In this document: piece by piece, positions 4,530-12,266 of the stretch
Layout of the letters: each line of letters starts with the position of its first letter
How positions within the stretch are numbered: position 1 is the stretch's first letter
Source of the DNA: Gammaproteobacteria bacterium
GTDB taxonomy: Bacteria > Pseudomonadota > Gammaproteobacteria > UWMA-0217
Direction of reading: 5' to 3'
Assembly: GCA_027081275.1 (NCBI GenBank)
Contig: JALWKV010000225.1
Coordinates: 1-36,899 of the forward strand
Length of the DNA: 36,899 nucleotides
The notes under the pieces: model-generated
What the model was told of the DNA's origin: nothing
Database searches by the model: none
The model's input: only the letters and a program-made list of their open reading frames with translations
Position numbers and translations under genes: made by a program

Positions 4530-5009
4530 CTAGAGCGTCACGATGGACAGATGTCCCTTGCCGTAGTTGGGGATTTCCACCTCGAATTTGACGCCGGGCG
4601 CGTTCTTGATGACCTCGACCGAATCGTCGGGCACCTTATCGATGCCTTCGTACATGTCGGTCAGCTTCAGGTGCGGCGTGGAGTCGTTCATCAGCAGGCG
4701 GGAACAGATGTTCATCACCTCGTAGACGTTCTCCTGCATGACCGGCGAAATTTCACCACTCTCGGCTGCATCCTCGGCTCCGCCCTTGGGCATCATCGAC
4801 AACGCGGCGCCGCCAAAGGCCGCAAACGGTACGTCGCAGGTGCAGGCCGCCACCGTCTTGCCCTCCTGATCGACAAAAAGGCCGACCAGCGCGTCGTCAT
4901 CGATGGTCGGATTTTCCTCGGCCTTCTTGACTACCAGCCCGTCACCGTAGAGCATGCTCAAGACGCCCAGCGTCTCCCTGTCAGCGGGAATATTGTATTT
5001 GGTATCCAT
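4530..5009 (-). CDS. cheX: CheX/CheC-type CheY-P phosphatase
   Basis: The protein has 159 residues. It carries one copy of the ExxN signature of the CheC/CheX/FliY family, in VYEVMNICSRLL, with Glu97 and Asn100 as the predicted residues that direct hydrolysis of phospho-CheY. The rest (a glycine-rich FAAFGGAALSMMP stretch at about 62-74) fits the CheX fold of alternating strands and long helices. A single motif suggests CheX rather than CheC, which usually has two. It is the last gene of the operon, 14 bases after a cheY gene and just before the terminator, a position consistent with switching off that CheY. The exact subfamily is uncertain. Confidence 0.75.
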   Translation of the reverse strand: MDTKYNIPADRETLGVLSMLYGDGLVVKKAEENPTIDDDALVGLFVDQEGKTVAACTCDVPFAAFGGAALSMMPKGGAEDAAESGEISPVMQENVYEVMNICSRLLMNDSTPHLKLTDMYEGIDKVPDDSVEVIKNAPGVKFEVEIPNYGKGHLSIVTL

Positions 5010-5023
5010 TATCAGATTTTTCC

Positions 5024-5392
5024 TTATCCCATGTATTTGTCGAGTACTTCAGCAAAGCTGTCGGCGGTAAAGGGCTTGGCGATCAGAAAATCGGCACCGG
5101 CCTCGTCGGCAATGGCGCGCATCTCGCTGGTCGCTTCGGTAGTGACAAAGCCGAAAGGCTTGTCGTAGCCCTCATCCTTGATGGCCTTGAGAAATTCGGG
5201 ACCATTCATGTTCGGCATGTTCCAGTCGGAAAGAATGATATCCGGATTGAACTCACGGACCTTTTCAACCCCCTTTGCACCGTCTTCGGCTTCTTCGATA
5301 TCGATGTCGTCGTAACCGGCATCACGCAGCGTCTTTTTAACAATCATACGCATTGCACGGCTGTCATCAACAATCAATACATTCATAGTCAT
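5024..5392 (-). CDS. cheY: CheY-type response regulator (second copy, operon distal)
   Basis: This is a stand-alone receiver domain of 122 residues. The acidic pocket is Asp9-Asp10, the phosphoacceptor is Asp56 in LSDWNMP, the switch Thr is at 84/85 and the conserved Lys is 106 in AKPF. There is no output domain, as expected for a CheY that binds the flagellar switch or acts as a phosphate sink. Met3 is an equally likely start and would give MNVLIVDDS. It lies between cheB and cheX. It differs clearly from the operon's first cheY, so the two are not a recent duplication. Confidence 0.9.
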   Translation of the reverse strand: MTMNVLIVDDSRAMRMIVKKTLRDAGYDDIDIEEAEDGAKGVEKVREFNPDIILSDWNMPNMNGPEFLKAIKDEGYDKPFGFVTTEATSEMRAIADEAGADFLIAKPFTADSFAEVLDKYMG

Positions 5393-5436: not shown

Positions 5437-6576
5437 TCAAATTTTCTGGATCTGGCTAATTACTTCGTTCGCAATTTCCTGTAAAGGCTTGAGCTTGACC
5501 ACGGCGCCGCGCTTGTAGGCCTGTCCGGGCATGCCCCAAACCACACTCGTCGCTTCGTCCTGCGCGACGGTATAACTGCCCGCCTCGCGCAATCTTTTCA
5601 TCGCGTCGGCACCGTCATCGCCCATTCCGGTCAACATCACAGCGACGGTTTTGCGCGGCGCGATCTTGCAGATCGAATCGAACATGACCTCGACAGACGG
5701 TTTGTGCTGGTTCACCGGTTCCGAATCATCGAGGTGACAATATAGCTTCCCCGCGCTGCTGCACACCACCAGATGGCGGTCTCCAGGCGCGATATAGACA
5801 TGACCGTTGACGATCTCCATGCCTTCCGTTGCCTGCGCCACCGTCATTTCGCAGATCGCGTTCATCCGCTCGGCAAACGAGGCGGAAAAGGCCGCTGGAA
5901 TGTGCTGGGTTATGACCACCGGTGGCATGTCGGCGGGAAAGCGCGTCAGAACCTCCTTCAGCGCCTCCGTGCCGCCGGTGGAAGAACCGATGGCAACCAT
6001 TTTTCCCGACGTCAACGACATCCGGGACTGCAACCGCTGCATGCTGCTGCCGGTGGCCGCCGTCGACGCGGGCCTGGACTGAACGGGCACCGCCGCGACG
6101 TGCGGACGAAAATTCTGCACCCTGGCCCGCGAAGCATTTTTCACCTTTTCGATAATGCCGCGCGTATAGTTGTTGAGCACGGCCTCGGACTTGACCTTCG
6201 GCTTTTCGATGAAATCGACGGCGCCGAGTTCCAGCGCGTCGAGCGTCGCGGTCGAACCTTCCGATGTCAGCGCCGACACCATGACCACCGGCATCGGTCG
6301 CAGCCGCATCAGATTGCTGAGAAACTGGATGCCGTTCATTCCCGGCATCTCGACGTCCAGCGTCAACACATCGGGATTGAGCGCCTTGATCTGCTCGCGC
6401 GCCTGATAGGCGTCCGCCGCCTGTCCGACCACTTCTATATCCGGGTCCGACGAGAGAATGCTGGTCAGCATCTTGCGCATCAACGGCGAATCATCGACGA
6501 CCAGCACCCTCACCTTGCCGCCACCGGCGAAACACGGCGTTCCCCTGTCCGTATAACTGTGATTCTGCATATTCAA
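5437..6576 (-). CDS. cheB: Chemotaxis response regulator protein-glutamate methylesterase CheB
   Basis: CheB removes methyl groups from, and deamidates, glutamyl residues of chemoreceptors, opposing CheR. The 379-residue protein has an N-terminal receiver domain (about 22-140; acidic pair Asp28-Asp29, phosphoacceptor Asp74 in LTLDVEMPGMNG) and a C-terminal catalytic domain (about 190-375). The catalytic triad is visible: Ser199 in IGSSTGGTEA, His225 in TQHIPAAF, and an Asp in GMGDDGADAM around 317-321. A linker of about 45 residues separates the domains. An AGGA sequence precedes the chosen start. It follows cheD after a 125-bp gap that holds no gene, and precedes cheY. Confidence 0.95.
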   Translation of the reverse strand: MNMQNHSYTDRGTPCFAGGGKVRVLVVDDSPLMRKMLTSILSSDPDIEVVGQAADAYQAREQIKALNPDVLTLDVEMPGMNGIQFLSNLMRLRPMPVVMVSALTSEGSTATLDALELGAVDFIEKPKVKSEAVLNNYTRGIIEKVKNASRARVQNFRPHVAAVPVQSRPASTAATGSSMQRLQSRMSLTSGKMVAIGSSTGGTEALKEVLTRFPADMPPVVITQHIPAAFSASFAERMNAICEMTVAQATEGMEIVNGHVYIAPGDRHLVVCSSAGKLYCHLDDSEPVNQHKPSVEVMFDSICKIAPRKTVAVMLTGMGDDGADAMKRLREAGSYTVAQDEATSVVWGMPGQAYKRGAVVKLKPLQEIANEVISQIQKI

Positions 6577-6701: not shown

Positions 6702-7322
6702 TCAGACAAAAAGCTCGACGTCTCCGCGCAGCGGCTTGCTCGTTAACGTATCGAGCATGCTGCGATCCTGACTGGCCACATCGCTGCCCGCCTCGAGCTT
6801 CTTCAGCAGCAATCTGCCGGTCTCGGGAAAATAGATGATCTTGCGCGCCCACATGCCACCGAGGTCCTTACCGGCCACACGATAACCCTCGCTGGCGAGA
6901 TAGTGGCAGACAAACTCGGCATTGGTCCTACCGACATCCTGCCCGATGCCACCGATATTGGCGCCGCCGAAAACCTTGATCTCCAGGTTCTGCTTGCGGC
7001 CGCCATACTTGACGATGTCGTTGATGAGATGCTCCATCGCGAAATTGCCATAACGCAGGGCGTCATCGACGACGCCGTGATGCGCCCCCTTGAGCGGCAG
7101 CATGAAGTGATTCATGCCGCCGACACCACGTTCGGGATCTCGAATGCAGGCGGCGACACAGGAGCCGAGCACCGTCGTCAGCACATCATCGCTCCGCGTG
7201 ACGTAGTATTCGCCCGGCTTGATCTTGGCCATGACAGCCTGGTATTCGCCGTTCCAGTAGCGATGCACGTTCTCGAAGCCCGGCAGCGGCGGCGGCAATT
7301 TCCTGTGTCCGTGAAGCGGCAT
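6702..7322 (-). CDS. cheD: Chemoreceptor glutamine deamidase CheD
   Basis: CheD deamidates specific glutamines in chemoreceptors to glutamates, making them substrates for CheR and CheB; in some bacteria it also binds CheC. The 206-residue protein shows the family's catalytic residues: Cys55 in TVLGSCVAACI and His72 in GGMNHFMLP, followed by the glycine-rich KVFGGANI segment. The first 25 residues are a non-conserved extension. It starts 4 bases after the cheR stop, so translation is probably coupled. CheX in the same operon is a relative of the CheC partner, but whether this CheD binds it is unknown. Confidence 0.94.
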   Translation of the reverse strand: MPLHGHRKLPPPLPGFENVHRYWNGEYQAVMAKIKPGEYYVTRSDDVLTTVLGSCVAACIRDPERGVGGMNHFMLPLKGAHHGVVDDALRYGNFAMEHLINDIVKYGGRKQNLEIKVFGGANIGGIGQDVGRTNAEFVCHYLASEGYRVAGKDLGGMWARKIIYFPETGRLLLKKLEAGSDVASQDRSMLDTLTSKPLRGDVELFV

Positions 7323-7326
7323 CGTC

Positions 7327-8160
7327 TCAACTCGCCTTCTTGTAGACGGTCTTGCCGAGCAGCTCGAAGCGGTCGGTCACCTTGTAGAGCGCCTCGGAAT
7401 GGCCGACGAAAAGGCGGCCATCCTCGGCCAGAATATCGGCGAACTTCGCAAACAGCTTCGTCTGCGTCGGCTTGTCGAAGTAGATGACGACGTTGCGGCA
7501 GAAGATCACGTCCATCGGCCCCTTCATCGGCCACTTTTCCATCAGGTTGAGCCGCCGGAAGGTGATCATTTCGCGGATCTCGGAACGCACCCGAACCTTA
7601 CCGGCATTCGGTCCTGTTCCCTTTTCGAAATATTTTTCGGCGTAGACGGAGGGAATTCCCGCGATCCGATCGGCGTCGTAGACGCCTGCCGCGCCGTGGG
7701 CCAGCACTTCCGAGTCGAGGTCGGTCGCAAGGATCTTCAGATCCCAGGAAGAGATCCCCGGCACCTTCTCCTTCAGCGCCATCGCGATCGAATAGGGCTC
7801 CTCACCGGTGGAACAGCCGGCCGACCAGATGCGAATGCGACTGCCCCGTGGCTTGTTCCTCATCAACGTGGGGATGACATCCTCGGTCAGCATCTCGAAA
7901 TGGTGCATTTCACGGAAGAACGACGTCAGATTGGTCGTCATCATGTTCGTGAACTGCTCCAGTTCCTTGGGGTCACCACTCTCGAGCAGCTTGATGTAAT
8001 CGGCAAAGGAGTCCAGCCGCAGCGTCCACAGGCGTCGGGTGACACGACCGTAGACCAGCTCCCGCTTGTTGTCCGCAAGATGGATCCCGGTCAGACGCGC
8101 CGCCAGGTTCTTGAAATAATTGAAGTCGGAATCGGTAAATTCATACTGTCTCTGCGCCAT
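7327..8160 (-). CDS. cheR: Chemotaxis protein methyltransferase CheR
   Basis: CheR is an S-adenosylmethionine-dependent methyltransferase that methylates glutamates on chemoreceptors. The 277-residue length is typical. An N-terminal helical domain (about 10-75) is followed by the conserved TNLTSFFRE (76-84), the SAM-binding RIWSAGCSTGEEPYS (about 110-124) and CRNVVIYFD (221-229). Its start codon overlaps the stop of the preceding gene by one base (TGATG), a sign of coupled translation. The adjacent cheD and nearby cheB complete the receptor modification set. Confidence 0.96.
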   Translation of the reverse strand: MAQRQYEFTDSDFNYFKNLAARLTGIHLADNKRELVYGRVTRRLWTLRLDSFADYIKLLESGDPKELEQFTNMMTTNLTSFFREMHHFEMLTEDVIPTLMRNKPRGSRIRIWSAGCSTGEEPYSIAMALKEKVPGISSWDLKILATDLDSEVLAHGAAGVYDADRIAGIPSVYAEKYFEKGTGPNAGKVRVRSEIREMITFRRLNLMEKWPMKGPMDVIFCRNVVIYFDKPTQTKLFAKFADILAEDGRLFVGHSEALYKVTDRFELLGKTVYKKAS

Positions 8161-8669
8161 CAGAAAAGCTCCACGGCATTGTTGTTGTCATTTTGAATGT
8201 TTTTCTCTTCGAGCGCTTCGGCGTCGGCCCAGCCCTGCTCCACCAGCATCGCGTGCAGCAGGGCCTTTTCATCCTCCAGCGTAAAGTTGGAGAGGATGCG
8301 TTCGTAGATCTCCGACTCGGTAACGGACTGATTCATCGTCATGCAGGCCATCGACTGCTCCAGCACGATGATGACGTGGTTCATCCGCTGCGTGAGACGA
8401 TCATAGAACTGGAACGACTGCAGCGAGTCGTTCATCACCGCCTTGATCCGCTCCACGGTCTGCGCGACGCCGGCGCCCTCCTCCCCGGAGCGGCAGTCGG
8501 CAACGCCGTCGACGAGCTCGTCCAGCAGTGTCGCCACCTCGATGAAGTTCGCCGACAGTTTGGCTACCCCTTTTTCACTGGACGACATCGCGTTTCTGAT
8601 CTGCGCGATGCTGATCTCCAGCGGATGCACTGGGGACGGCGATATGTTCCGATCAGCGCTATGACTCAT
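8160..8669 (-). CDS. Small helical protein with a CheZ-like DxxxQ motif (candidate CheY-P phosphatase)
   Basis: The protein has 169 residues and I do not recognise it as a named family. It is predicted to be mostly helical. In the segment SFQFYDRLTQRM the residues Asp90 and Gln94 reproduce the DxxxQ spacing that CheZ uses to hydrolyse phospho-CheY, also in an FQ-rich helix. It is shorter than typical CheZ (about 200-215 residues) and lacks an obvious CheZ C-terminal CheY-docking helix, although its tail is acidic and hydrophobic (ending AVELF). I chose the ATG at 8669, because the longer open frame would run back into the STAS gene and has no RBS advantage. Position between the STAS gene and cheR, with a one-base overlap onto cheR, makes a chemotaxis role very likely. 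The phosphatase role is an inference from one motif. Confidence 0.65.
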   Translation of the reverse strand: MSHSADRNISPSPVHPLEISIAQIRNAMSSSEKGVAKLSANFIEVATLLDELVDGVADCRSGEEGAGVAQTVERIKAVMNDSLQSFQFYDRLTQRMNHVIIVLEQSMACMTMNQSVTESEIYERILSNFTLEDEKALLHAMLVEQGWADAEALEEKNIQNDNNNAVELF

Positions 8670-8707: not shown

Positions 8708-9001
8708 TCAGGACTGACAACCGAGCTGCGAAGCTTCGACGCCGATTCCCTTGATGAAATCGGCCACGCCCGGTTGCAGATCGTTCGCGGTCAGCGCCTT
8801 GCCTGCGCTGTTGCAATGCTGTGCCATGACCAAAAGCAGTTGCACACCGGCGGTATCGATGCTGGTCAGGCCAGAGAGATCGAGCGTCACGCCTCCCTCT
8901 GCCTGGATGGGCCCTTCGACCTGCTTCTTGATCTCGGCGACATTGGCGATGGTGAGCTGTTCGGGCAGCTTGATCGTGGCGTTCGCAGTATTATCACTCA
9001 T
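8708..9001 (-). CDS. STAS-domain protein (anti-anti-sigma-like)
   Basis: The protein is a 97-residue single STAS domain. The diagnostic loop and helix are seen in LDLSGLTSIDTAGVQLLL (about 40-57). In phosphorylatable STAS proteins such as SpoIIAA the position after the Asp is a Ser; here it is Thr. STAS proteins act as protein-protein switches, often against kinase or anti-sigma partners, but no RsbW/SpoIIAB-like kinase is seen here. CheA in this operon is a HATPase, though I have no evidence for direct contact. It is separated from cheW by 142 bp and lies 38 bp before the DxxxQ gene. Its role is unknown, and presence in chemotaxis operons is the main clue. Confidence 0.85.
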   Translation of the reverse strand: MSDNTANATIKLPEQLTIANVAEIKKQVEGPIQAEGGVTLDLSGLTSIDTAGVQLLLVMAQHCNSAGKALTANDLQPGVADFIKGIGVEASQLGCQS

Positions 9002-9143: not shown

Positions 9144-9668
9144 TCAATTCGGCAGCTGAGCGATTTCCTTGCCCACCTCAACCTCGATCATGTGATTGAT
9201 ATTGAGCAGAATGATCATTTTTTCGTCCACGGTGGCCAGCCCCTTGATGTACTCGGTGGAAACCACCGTGCCCATCGAAGGCGTATTTTCGATCGCGGCC
9301 TCGTTGAGGTTGTAGACCTCGGACACCGCATCGACGACCATGCCGACGACCCGCTCGGTATTGTCTTCGCTGCGCGTCTTGACGACGATGACGACCGTGG
9401 TCGGTCCGAAATCGCTCTTGTCGAGGCCGAAGCAGTTGCGCAGGTCGATGATCGGCACGACGGTGCCGCGCAGATTGATGACGCCGAGCACGTGATCCGG
9501 CGTGTTCGGAATCGGCGTCGCCCCTTCCCAGCCCTTGATCTCCTGCACGTTGAGGATGTTCAGCCCGTATTCCTCCCCGGCCAGCATGAACGTCAGATAC
9601 TGATCGGTGCCCTGATTGATGTGAATGTTCTTTTCAGCTGTGCTGTCTGTTGGTGTCATGTTCTGCAT
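9144..9668 (-). CDS. cheW: Chemotaxis coupling protein CheW
   Basis: CheW links chemoreceptors to the CheA kinase. The 174-residue protein is a single CheW domain: QYLTFMLAGEEYGLNI at about 23-38, then PNTPDHVLGVINLRGTVVPI (about 54-73), and ERVVGMVVDAVSEV further on. There is a polar N-terminal tail of about 20 residues. It begins 19 bases after the cheA stop. The 142-bp space after it (9002-9143) contains no gene. A sequence resembling a FliA -10 box (CCGATAA) is present there on the minus strand, but no matching -35 box is seen. Confidence 0.96.
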   Translation of the reverse strand: MQNMTPTDSTAEKNIHINQGTDQYLTFMLAGEEYGLNILNVQEIKGWEGATPIPNTPDHVLGVINLRGTVVPIIDLRNCFGLDKSDFGPTTVVIVVKTRSEDNTERVVGMVVDAVSEVYNLNEAAIENTPSMGTVVSTEYIKGLATVDEKMIILLNINHMIEVEVGKEIAQLPN

Positions 9669-9687: not shown

Positions 9688-11829
9688 TTATGCCGCTTCT
9701 AGGCTGGTATTGGTGATCTTTCCCTGACTGAGCAGATGCTGTCGTATCAGGCTCGCTACATCCATGATCAAGGCCACGGTGCCATCCCCGAGAATGGTGG
9801 CGCCGGACAGCGCGTCGACCTTGCGGAAATTCTTTTCCAGGCTCTTGATGACCACCTGCTGCTGCCCCTGCAATTCGTCGACGAACAGGCCGACACGCTT
9901 GCGCTCCGCCTCGACCACGACCAGCAGGCCGTCCTCGAAATTGGTGACATCGGTCTGCAGGCCGAAGATCTTGTGCAGCCGCAACACGGGGATGTATTCG
10001 TCGCGCAGTTTGTAGAGGTCGATCTTTCCCTTGTATTTCTTGATCAGCTTGGGGTTGATCTGCAGCGACTCGTCGATGGACAGCATTGGAATGACGTAGG
10101 TCTCGGTGCCGACCTTGACCAGCTGGCCGTCGATGATCGCCAGCGTCAGCGGCAGGCGGATGCTGATGGTGCTGCCCTTGCCCTCTTCCGAGATGATGTA
10201 GATCTGGCCGCCCAGCTCGTTGATGTTCCGGCGCACCACGTCCATGCCGACGCCCCGACCGGAGATGTCGCTCACCACCTCGGCGGTGGAGAAGCCCGGC
10301 TCGAAAATGAGGTTGTTGATCTCTTCGTCGGTCAGTTTTTCATCGGGGGCGATGATGCCGTTTTCCACTGCCTTCTGGAACACCCGCTCCTTGTTGATGC
10401 CGGCACCGTCATCGACCACCTCGATGACGATATTGCCGCCTTCGTGATAGGCCTTCAGTTCGATGGTGCCGGTTTCCGGTTTGCCCAGCTCGCGACGCTT
10501 CTCCGGCATTTCCAGGCCGTGGTCGAGCGAGTTGCGCACCAGATGGACCAGCGGATCGGCGATCTTCTCCAGTACCGTCTTGTCGAGCTCGGTGCTCTCT
10601 CCGGAAATGACCAGTTCCACTTTCTTGCCGAGCTTCGAACTCATGTCGCGAACCAGTCGCGGAAAGCGGTTGAACGAACTGCTGATCGGCAGCATGCGGA
10701 TCTGCATCGCCGTCTCCTGCAGCTCCCGGGAGTTGCGCGTGAGCTGGCTCAGGCCATCCCGCAGAGACTCGATCTGCGACATGTCGAATTCGTCGGTGAA
10801 CTGGCTCAGCATCGACTGGGTGATGATCAGCTCGCCAACCAGATTGATCAGCGAATCGATTTTCTCGATGCTGACGCGGATCGATCCCGATTCGCCGGAA
10901 GGCTTCTTCTTCGCCTTGGCCGGTTTTTTCGCGGCGGGCTTTTCCGCTTCGGCGGTGGGCGCGGCAGGGGCCGGCTTTTCCGCGGCCGCGGCTTGCGGCG
11001 CTGGCGTTTCGGCCTTCGCCTCCGCTTGCGCAGTCGGGGCCGCCTCGGCCTCGGCCGGGGCCGAGGCCTTGCTCTCGCTCGCCGCAGCCTCGTCGGTCAG
11101 CGGCGTGATGCTGATATCGCAGTCTCCCTCGATCCAGGAAAAGACGTCGCGCACGCGCTGCTCATTGACCGTGGTGATCAGCTGCAGGCGCCAGCCGAGA
11201 TAGTTCTGCTCAGGATCGAAATCCTTGAAGTTCGGGACCTTGTTCAGGTTGCAGACGACATTCAGCTCACCGAGCTGGCGCAGCTCGTCAAACAGCCGGT
11301 AGGGCTCATTGCCGGTCTTGAGAATATCGGGTTGCGGATAGAAGTCGATGACCCAGCCCTTTTTCGCGCCTTCCGCCGATTCGGTGGCGGGCGCTTCAGC
11401 TTCCGGCTCGGACGCGGCGTCGGCACCCCCACCCTCTTCCTTGTTCTCAAGCATGACCTCGAGCCGCTTTTTCAGATCGTCGACCCTTTTTTCGTCGATC
11501 GGCTCCTCGTCGCGGGCCGCGTCGATCATTTCCCGCAGACAGTCGACCGACTCCAGCAGCAGATCGACCGCCGCCGTCGTCACTTCCCGCTCACGCGAGC
11601 GCATCTGATCGAGCAATGTCTCCATGACGTGAGTGAACCCGGCGATCTCGTGCATGTCGAATGTGGCGCTCCCCCCCTTGATGGAGTGCGCGGCGCGAAA
11701 GATCGTATTGATCTCCTCGACATCGACCTCGCCGTTTCCAAGATTCAACAGTCCTGTCTCCATTACATCGAGGCCTTCCGAACACTCTTCGAAGAAGACC
11801 TCCAGAAATTCAGACATATCCATGGACAT
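9688..11829 (-). CDS. cheA: Chemotaxis histidine kinase CheA
   Basis: CheA autophosphorylates under receptor control and passes phosphate to CheY and CheB. The 713-residue protein has the P1 Hpt domain with His48 in AAHSIKGGSATF, and a P2-like domain at about 158-245. A long Ala/Pro/Glu/Lys linker follows at 248-312, then the P3 dimerisation helices (about 316-380). The HATPase domain has N-box HLVRNSLDHGLE (429-440), G1 VVDDGAGI (471-478), F-box IFEPGFST (508-515) and G2 GRGVGMDVV (524-532). The C-terminal CheW-like P5 covers about 560-700. A GAGG sequence sits about 8 bases upstream of the chosen ATG; a second in-frame Met three codons later is possible. The gene lies 77 bases after cheY and 19 before cheW. 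Confidence 0.97.
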   Translation of the reverse strand: MSMDMSEFLEVFFEECSEGLDVMETGLLNLGNGEVDVEEINTIFRAAHSIKGGSATFDMHEIAGFTHVMETLLDQMRSREREVTTAAVDLLLESVDCLREMIDAARDEEPIDEKRVDDLKKRLEVMLENKEEGGGADAASEPEAEAPATESAEGAKKGWVIDFYPQPDILKTGNEPYRLFDELRQLGELNVVCNLNKVPNFKDFDPEQNYLGWRLQLITTVNEQRVRDVFSWIEGDCDISITPLTDEAAASESKASAPAEAEAAPTAQAEAKAETPAPQAAAAEKPAPAAPTAEAEKPAAKKPAKAKKKPSGESGSIRVSIEKIDSLINLVGELIITQSMLSQFTDEFDMSQIESLRDGLSQLTRNSRELQETAMQIRMLPISSSFNRFPRLVRDMSSKLGKKVELVISGESTELDKTVLEKIADPLVHLVRNSLDHGLEMPEKRRELGKPETGTIELKAYHEGGNIVIEVVDDGAGINKERVFQKAVENGIIAPDEKLTDEEINNLIFEPGFSTAEVVSDISGRGVGMDVVRRNINELGGQIYIISEEGKGSTISIRLPLTLAIIDGQLVKVGTETYVIPMLSIDESLQINPKLIKKYKGKIDLYKLRDEYIPVLRLHKIFGLQTDVTNFEDGLLVVVEAERKRVGLFVDELQGQQQVVIKSLEKNFRKVDALSGATILGDGTVALIMDVASLIRQHLLSQGKITNTSLEAA

Positions 11830-11906: not shown

Positions 11907-12266
11907 TTACAGAACCTTGTTTATCGTGTTTACGAGCGTCTCGGGGTCGAACGGCTTGACGATCCAACCCGTTGCGCCCGCGTCCCGTCCCTTCATCTTG
12001 CTCTCCACCGACCCTTCCGTGGTCAGCGTCAGAATCGGCTTGCCGTTGTAGGCGGCCAGTCCCCGCAGGCTGCGGATCAGCTCGATGCCATCCATCTCCG
12101 GCATATTGATATCGGTCAGCACCAGGTCGACGTCCAGCTCCTGGGCCATTTCCAGCGCCTCGACGCCATCCTTGGCTTCGTAGACCTCAAAACCGGCTCG
12201 TTTCAATGTGTAGGCGACCATTTGACGCATCGAGGGGGAATCATCCACCGCCAATATTTTCTTCAT
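11907..12266 (-). CDS. cheY: CheY-type response regulator (first gene of the chemotaxis operon)
   Basis: This is a single receiver domain of 119 residues with acidic residues Asp8-Asp9, phosphoacceptor Asp52 in VLTDINMPEMDG, Thr82/Thr83 and Lys104 in IVKPF. A GGAG ribosome site stands 5 bases before the ATG. It heads the operon and precedes cheA, the arrangement usual for the CheY paired with that kinase. A candidate sigma-54 promoter lies about 70 bases upstream. Confidence 0.95.
   Translation of the reverse strand: MKKILAVDDSPSMRQMVAYTLKRAGFEVYEAKDGVEALEMAQELDVDLVLTDINMPEMDGIELIRSLRGLAAYNGKPILTLTTEGSVESKMKGRDAGATGWIVKPFDPETLVNTINKVL

Follow-up and report, generated by a model that had tools for sequence, protein, structure and literature searches.

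Gene X rather likely encodes the gammaproteobacterial counterpart of CheT, that is, a helical-hairpin phosphatase for one CheY of its own operon, whose C-terminal tail would dock on the adaptation machinery; the activity, the dimer, the substrate and the docking partner are what we infer. CheT is the closest characterized protein to X. The window, the whole stretch of DNA analyzed here, covers 36,899 nucleotides of contig JALWKV010000225.1 (assembly GCA_027081275.1) from a member of the Gammaproteobacteria. X lies there in a chemotaxis operon of the order cheY1-cheA-cheW-STAS-X-cheR-cheD-cheB-cheY2-CheX-like, which runs on the minus strand from 12266 to 4530 (Table 1). Its product reads MSHSADRN...SFQFYDRLTQRM...NNNAVELF, with D90 and Q94 inside SFQFYDRLTQRM. 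The original prediction placed the open reading frame exactly where we find it, naming no strand, and described it as coupled to cheR and as following a STAS gene; both descriptions are borne out, by the overlap of stop and start codons and by the Pfam match of the product encoded just upstream. STAS adjoins X in most of the X operons examined, and this conserved adjacency is the sole evidence for the further proposal of a STAS-regulated phosphatase. SpoIIAA-type STAS proteins have a phosphorylatable Ser at a site where the STAS protein of the window has D-T-A-G, so that a classical phospho-switch is probably absent. A gene for a ParA-like ATPase is found two genes upstream of X in four X operons (L101, L137, L140 and L163).

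Table 1. Gene X, its sequence features and the neighboring genes of the operon
Feature	Position	Strand	Basis
Gene X, encoding a helical protein of 169 aa (putative DxxxQ phosphatase, CheT/CheZ-like)	8160..8669	-	ORF, alignment, AlphaFold2
X residues 85-94, S-F-Q-F-Y-D-R-L-T-Q; motif A-x-x-F-Y-D-x-x-x-Q; Q87, D90 and Q94 invariant	8388..8417	-	alignment
X residues 129-135, F-T-L-E-D-E-K; second patch conserved across the family (consensus Y-T-x-E-x-[ED]-R) and shared with the module on MCPs	8265..8285	-	
X C-terminus A-V-E-L-F, preceded by a polar linker; putative docking motif	8163..8177	-	conservation; disordered in AlphaFold2 model
TGATG, X stop overlapping cheR ATG (translational coupling)	8158..8162	-	sequence
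STAS-domain protein, just upstream of X	8708..9001	-	PF13466, E 6e-15
CheR	7327..8160	-	PF01739
CheD	6702..7322	-	PF03975
CheD C-terminus D-V-E-L-F-V, tail motif as in X	6705..6722	-	sequence
CheB	5437..6576	-	Pfam
CheY2, candidate substrate	5024..5392	-	PF00072
CheX/CheC/FliM-fold protein, invariant ExxN (E97-V-M-N100); second candidate CheY-P phosphatase	4530..5009	-	AlphaFold2 and PDB matches, no Pfam match
CheW	9144..9668	-	Pfam
CheA	9688..11829	-	Pfam
CheY1, candidate substrate	11907..12266	-	Pfam

X has no match among the Pfam and NCBIfam models, and searching 39 family members against both collections recognized no family, scattered weak hits aside. Relatives were found by a protein search in six of 56 related genomes and in the window's own genome, and many more among 369 genomes of the class searched with a profile of eight sequences; one scan of bacterial genome contigs returned 472 candidate loci, the best 80 of which were kept and include Shewanella, Methylophaga, Ectothiorhodospira, Gallionella, Zoogloea and Silanimonas. 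A contig scan with X alone as query gave no relatives, and none were found in a plasmid search. Judged from these sequences, X belongs to a large and widespread family that has no catalog entry. The claim that X is an undescribed component thus holds for its family, which is uncatalogued, but not in full, as CheT is a published precedent of the same kind. At least one DxxxQ occurs in 39.5% of shuffles of X, so that the motif by itself does not exceed chance, and the significance of D90 and Q94 therefore comes from their conservation across relatives rather than from the occurrence of the motif in X. Q87, D90 and Q94 are kept without exception by the 39 aligned relatives, whose identity to X is 18-43%, while F88, H98 and F169 are each conserved in more than 90%. 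The pattern used in the contig scan, QF[YH]D...Q, contains the two residues and so provides no test of them, but it leaves out the tail, which can be tested. Among the hits of searches made independently of the motif, Q-x-x-D-x-x-x-Q is kept in 50/50 distinct standalone relatives and in 30/30 longer proteins. The catalytic spacing of CheZ claimed for D90 and Q94 is hence both present in X and conserved, and homologues lacking the pair, sought as a refutation, were found neither among the 39 aligned sequences nor among the 80 motif-independent hits.

AlphaFold2, run with the 39-row alignment (mean pLDDT 75.9, pTM 0.57), predicts that helices 16-58 and 63-111 of X form a hairpin and that X has, besides, three short helices and a tail that is disordered, in agreement with the helical fold first proposed; no fold other than a hairpin, which would have spoken against the proposal, is indicated. 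The same proposal had D90 and Q94 exposed on the hairpin, and here the support is weaker than for the fold: the angle from the computed hydrophobic face is 117-168 degrees for the two residues (three window choices) and 117-177 degrees for Q87, D90, Q94 and H98 together, but the hydrophobic moment of the motif helix is non-significant (p 0.29), so that their exposure to solvent is plausible in the model and not more. Foldseek found no PDB match to the model at E<=0.001, hairpins being generic, and a sequence search of the PDB with X returned coiled-coil noise only.

X had been considered too different from CheZ to be given that name, and this assessment stands. PF04344 matches neither X, nor any of 39 family members, nor any protein of X's own genome, and direct hhalign comparison of the X family with 24 CheZ sequences scores 20.5, which is at noise level (maximum 29.8 in 60 heptad-block shuffles); judged by profiles, X lies outside the CheZ family. 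The two proteins nevertheless share several features: a helical hairpin (predicted in the case of X) whose second helix bears the D-x-x-x-Q, the composite motif A-x-x-F-[QY]-D-x-x-x-Q, and a C-terminal peptide that follows a linker. In CheZ, a conserved A-x-x-F-Q adjoins the D-x-x-x-Q (PMC7750401); in the corresponding A-x-x-F-Y-D-x-x-x-Q of X, the A is found in 27/39 and the F in 38/39 relatives. X is shorter than CheZ, lacks the T-G of FQDLTGQ, and ends in NNNAVELF where CheZ sequences end in VDDLLSSLGF, so that the CheY-binding peptide VDDLLxSLGF is missing. X and CheZ occur together in many genomes. In E. coli, K92 of CheY pairs with D143 of CheZ. As aligned by eye, neither CheY1 nor CheY2 of the window has a lysine at that position, and the contacts between X and CheY would thus have to differ from those made by CheZ.

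A profile link between X and CheZ is provided by chemoreceptors. Among the genomes of the class, the lower-scoring hits proved to be short transmembrane MCPs (about 400 aa). Their C-terminus carries a module, with no annotated domain, that contains LQFQDR[VI]xQxLxHV and SYTMxxER and ends in [IV]TFF. Its LQFQDRxxQ-x-L-x-H stretch, its SYTMxxER and its tail have counterparts in X, from which it differs in being fused to an MCP signaling domain and in ending in TFF instead of ELF. In hhalign comparisons it matches the X family (98.9%, score 106; shuffle maximum 46), to which the profiles indicate that it is homologous, and also CheZ (69%, score 37.0, above all 60 shuffles with a maximum of 24.1), with FQDRVSQ placed on FQDLTGQ; ordinary MCP C-halves, a control of five sequences only, scored 23.5 against CheZ and 24.3 against X. 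The modules hit PF04344 at E of about 1e-4 to 8e-3, all below the curated cut-off, the hit at E 0.008 being in the right place. A joint X and MCP profile scores 26.0 against CheZ, not above shuffles (27.8), so that the bridge depends on the MCP module; with that limit, the chain from the X family through the MCP module to CheZ supports a remote relationship of X and CheZ. MCPs with the CheZ-like module, ending in [IV]TFF or ELF, were seen at L039-L049, L169, L171-L174, L176-L178, L180, L181 and L184, and these short receptors are possibly receptor-fused phosphatases; the 14 MCPs of X's own genome lack the module. A related internal module, LQNIDRVxQR ... YVMEEER, is present in a protein of mostly 1100-1500 aa (L179, L182, L183 and L185-L192; twice in L192) from small genomes of another class of the same phylum, and the part of this protein compared with Pfam gave no match.

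The closest parallel is with CheT. CheT of Sinorhizobium meliloti is reported to contain a DxxxQ, to dephosphorylate one of two CheYs, to have a CheZ-like AlphaFold model and to form a complex with CheR, and its operon contains a STAS protein (CheS), two CheYs, CheD and CheR (Agbekudzi et al., 2024, as summarized in PMC12654446). For comparison, we took as CheT the product encoded after rhizobial cheD (L198-L200), assigned by place and length, and extended the set to 13 alphaproteobacterial sequences. Q-x-x-D-x-x-x-Q is invariant in all 13, as in X, and their tails (GDFEAF, GDFDFF or TTELF, for example) are, like that of X, short, acidic/hydrophobic and end in F; both proteins are small (about 124 aa for CheT, 169 for X) and their operons agree in content. 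The CheT profile matches X plus MCP modules with the motif in register (hhalign 73%, score 34.9, a value reached by 0/60 shuffles, maximum 28.8); against the X family alone the match is weaker (40%, score 29.8, 1/60 shuffles higher) and against CheZ there is none. The differences are a low sequence identity, the absence from CheT of the Y-T-x-E-x-[ED]-R patch, an F in the CheT tail (DFEAF/GDFDFF) where X has I/V, and the gene order, cheT following cheD whereas X lies between STAS and cheR. Moreover, the X family is gamma- and betaproteobacterial and mostly found outside che operons, while CheT is alphaproteobacterial. The suggestion that X is a minimal phospho-CheY phosphatase is thus partly supported; the reading with the best support is a CheZ-like DxxxQ phosphatase outside the CheZ family, by the invariant D/Q pair, the composite motif, the profile chain and the match to CheT. 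More tentatively, and with the odds somewhat against it, X, CheT, the short-MCP module and the catalytic half of CheZ may be branches of one DxxxQ phosphatase superfamily across Proteobacteria, with many members orphan or receptor-fused.

X is found in the che operon of 19 genomes from several families (G000, G001, G003, G004, G031, G069, G134, G148, G169, G200, G235 and G747-G754), usually in the order STAS-X-cheR, although in a few genomes a single-sequence search did not detect STAS; other copies are mostly orphans, some near CheY-, CheW- or CheV-like genes, and those of Ectothiorhodospira, Shewanella and Methylophaga lie, in the loci read, outside che operons. CheZ is present in 11 of the 19 genomes and missing from eight. 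We had considered that operon-borne X replaces CheZ, since eight of the first nine genomes lacked CheZ (Fisher p 1e-5), but dropped the idea when eight further genomes and then two more proved to have it. The last gene of the operon, next to cheY2, bears on the same question: its product gives an AlphaFold2 model of pLDDT 89 with 21 PDB matches at E<=0.001 (FliM middle domains, CheX, CheC-like proteins and FliY) and is, by this model, a Pfam-invisible candidate phosphatase of the CheX/CheC type. Like X, CheX, CheC and FliY have CheY-P dephosphorylation as their job, proposed in the case of X, but with an alpha/beta fold and ExxN in place of the predicted all-helical fold and DxxxQ. The CheX-fold gene occurs in seven of the eight X-operon genomes without CheZ and in 0/9 of the CheZ-bearing ones searched; it tracks the absence of CheZ better than operon-borne X does (7/7 versus 1/10, p 0.0004, for genomes that are not independent); CheZ or a CheX-fold protein accompanies X in 18/19. 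With CheZ in 11/19 genomes and the ExxN protein in the operon, dephosphorylation need not depend on X alone. CheZ and the CheX-fold protein seem to take each other's place from genome to genome, with X present throughout; X is therefore probably not the only bulk phosphatase, and a CheT-like role, directed at one particular CheY and tied to adaptation, is preferred.

Candidate partners of the tail are CheR, CheY (as for the C-terminus of CheZ) and a protein that CheD also binds. The tail reads [IV][ED][LF]F in 74/74 relatives from the best 80 of the 472 contig-scan loci, and [IV]E[LF]F in 47/50 of the motif-independent standalone relatives. CheD of the window and of six X operons (L084, L094, L101, L137, L160 and L163) ends in [IV]ELF(V), like X, and rhizobial CheD (L198-L200) also has an [IV]E[LF]F end. 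The motif is possibly, as these sequences suggest, a common docking motif of adaptation proteins. The WxxF pentapeptide is a known CheR-docking signal, with which 5/14 MCPs of X's genome end (EVWEAF, EAWEEF, GGWQEF, QDWDSF and DDWDAF, among L212-L225); the tail of X resembles it but has no aromatic residue.

Alternatively, X may be a phosphatase whose tail binds CheY as the C-terminus of CheZ does, which would make it CheZ-like in both halves and leave no link to adaptation. The shared architecture, a helical DxxxQ hairpin followed by a polar linker and, at the C-terminus, a short conserved peptide whose last residue is F, is what one would expect; the presence of the same tail on CheD and its dissimilarity to that of CheZ speak against this reading, which we regard as unlikely though serious. 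To a similar degree it is doubtful that X serves as an adaptor or sink regulator for the receiver, binding CheY in either phosphorylation state through the stripe Q87-D90-Q94-H98 and delivering it by its tail to CheR/CheD at the receptors, without catalysis. Such a role would account for Q87 and H98 being conserved as well on this face, beyond the catalytic need of CheZ, for the tail common to X and CheD, and for the co-occurring CheZ or CheX-fold proteins, by which the phosphatase job may already be filled, but not for the exactly invariant D/Q spacing, that of the catalytic pair of CheZ and CheT, and CheT is reported to be active (PMC12654446). Still less probable is that X is mainly an adaptation protein, with a tail that mimics the receptor C-terminus and competes with, or recruits, CheR, CheB or CheD, a hairpin that serves as scaffold, and a phosphatase activity that is secondary or directed at CheB-P. 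The coupling to cheR, the near-universal tail found also on CheD, the DITFF-type tails of module-bearing MCPs and the reported CheT-CheR complex (PMC12654446) would fit, yet orphan X genes away from cheR keep both motif and tail, and [IV]ELF differs from the W/F-x-x-F pentapeptide. That the DxxxQ arose by chance, and that X is a coiled coil with a structural role in the array, as the frequency of the motif in shuffles (40%), the generic coiled-coil hits and the missing fold match might suggest, is very improbable and strongly disfavored by the 80/80 conservation, aligned members being 18-43% identical to X.

In the CheT-like reading that we prefer, X would probably dimerize into a four-helix bundle like that of CheZ and would dephosphorylate one CheY-type receiver of its own operon; D90 would place the receiver and Q94 the water for the attack, the parts played in CheZ by D143 and Q147. 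The [IV]-E-L-F tail, on its flexible linker, would dock X to a partner in the adaptation machinery, and this docking would tie the termination of the signal to adaptation. CheR is the first candidate for that partner, because CheT binds CheR and because X and cheR are coupled in translation.

In chemotaxis systems that lack CheZ, the way in which CheY-P is turned off is only partly understood. The X family, for which one scan gave 472 candidate loci and neither Pfam nor NCBIfam has a model, provides candidates for the missing phosphatases that can be put to the test, and sets the 2024 discovery of CheT in a wider group. Cells may thus have an overlooked set of signal-terminating enzymes and, if the superfamily reading is true, there would be chemoreceptors that remove the phosphate from their own CheY at the array.
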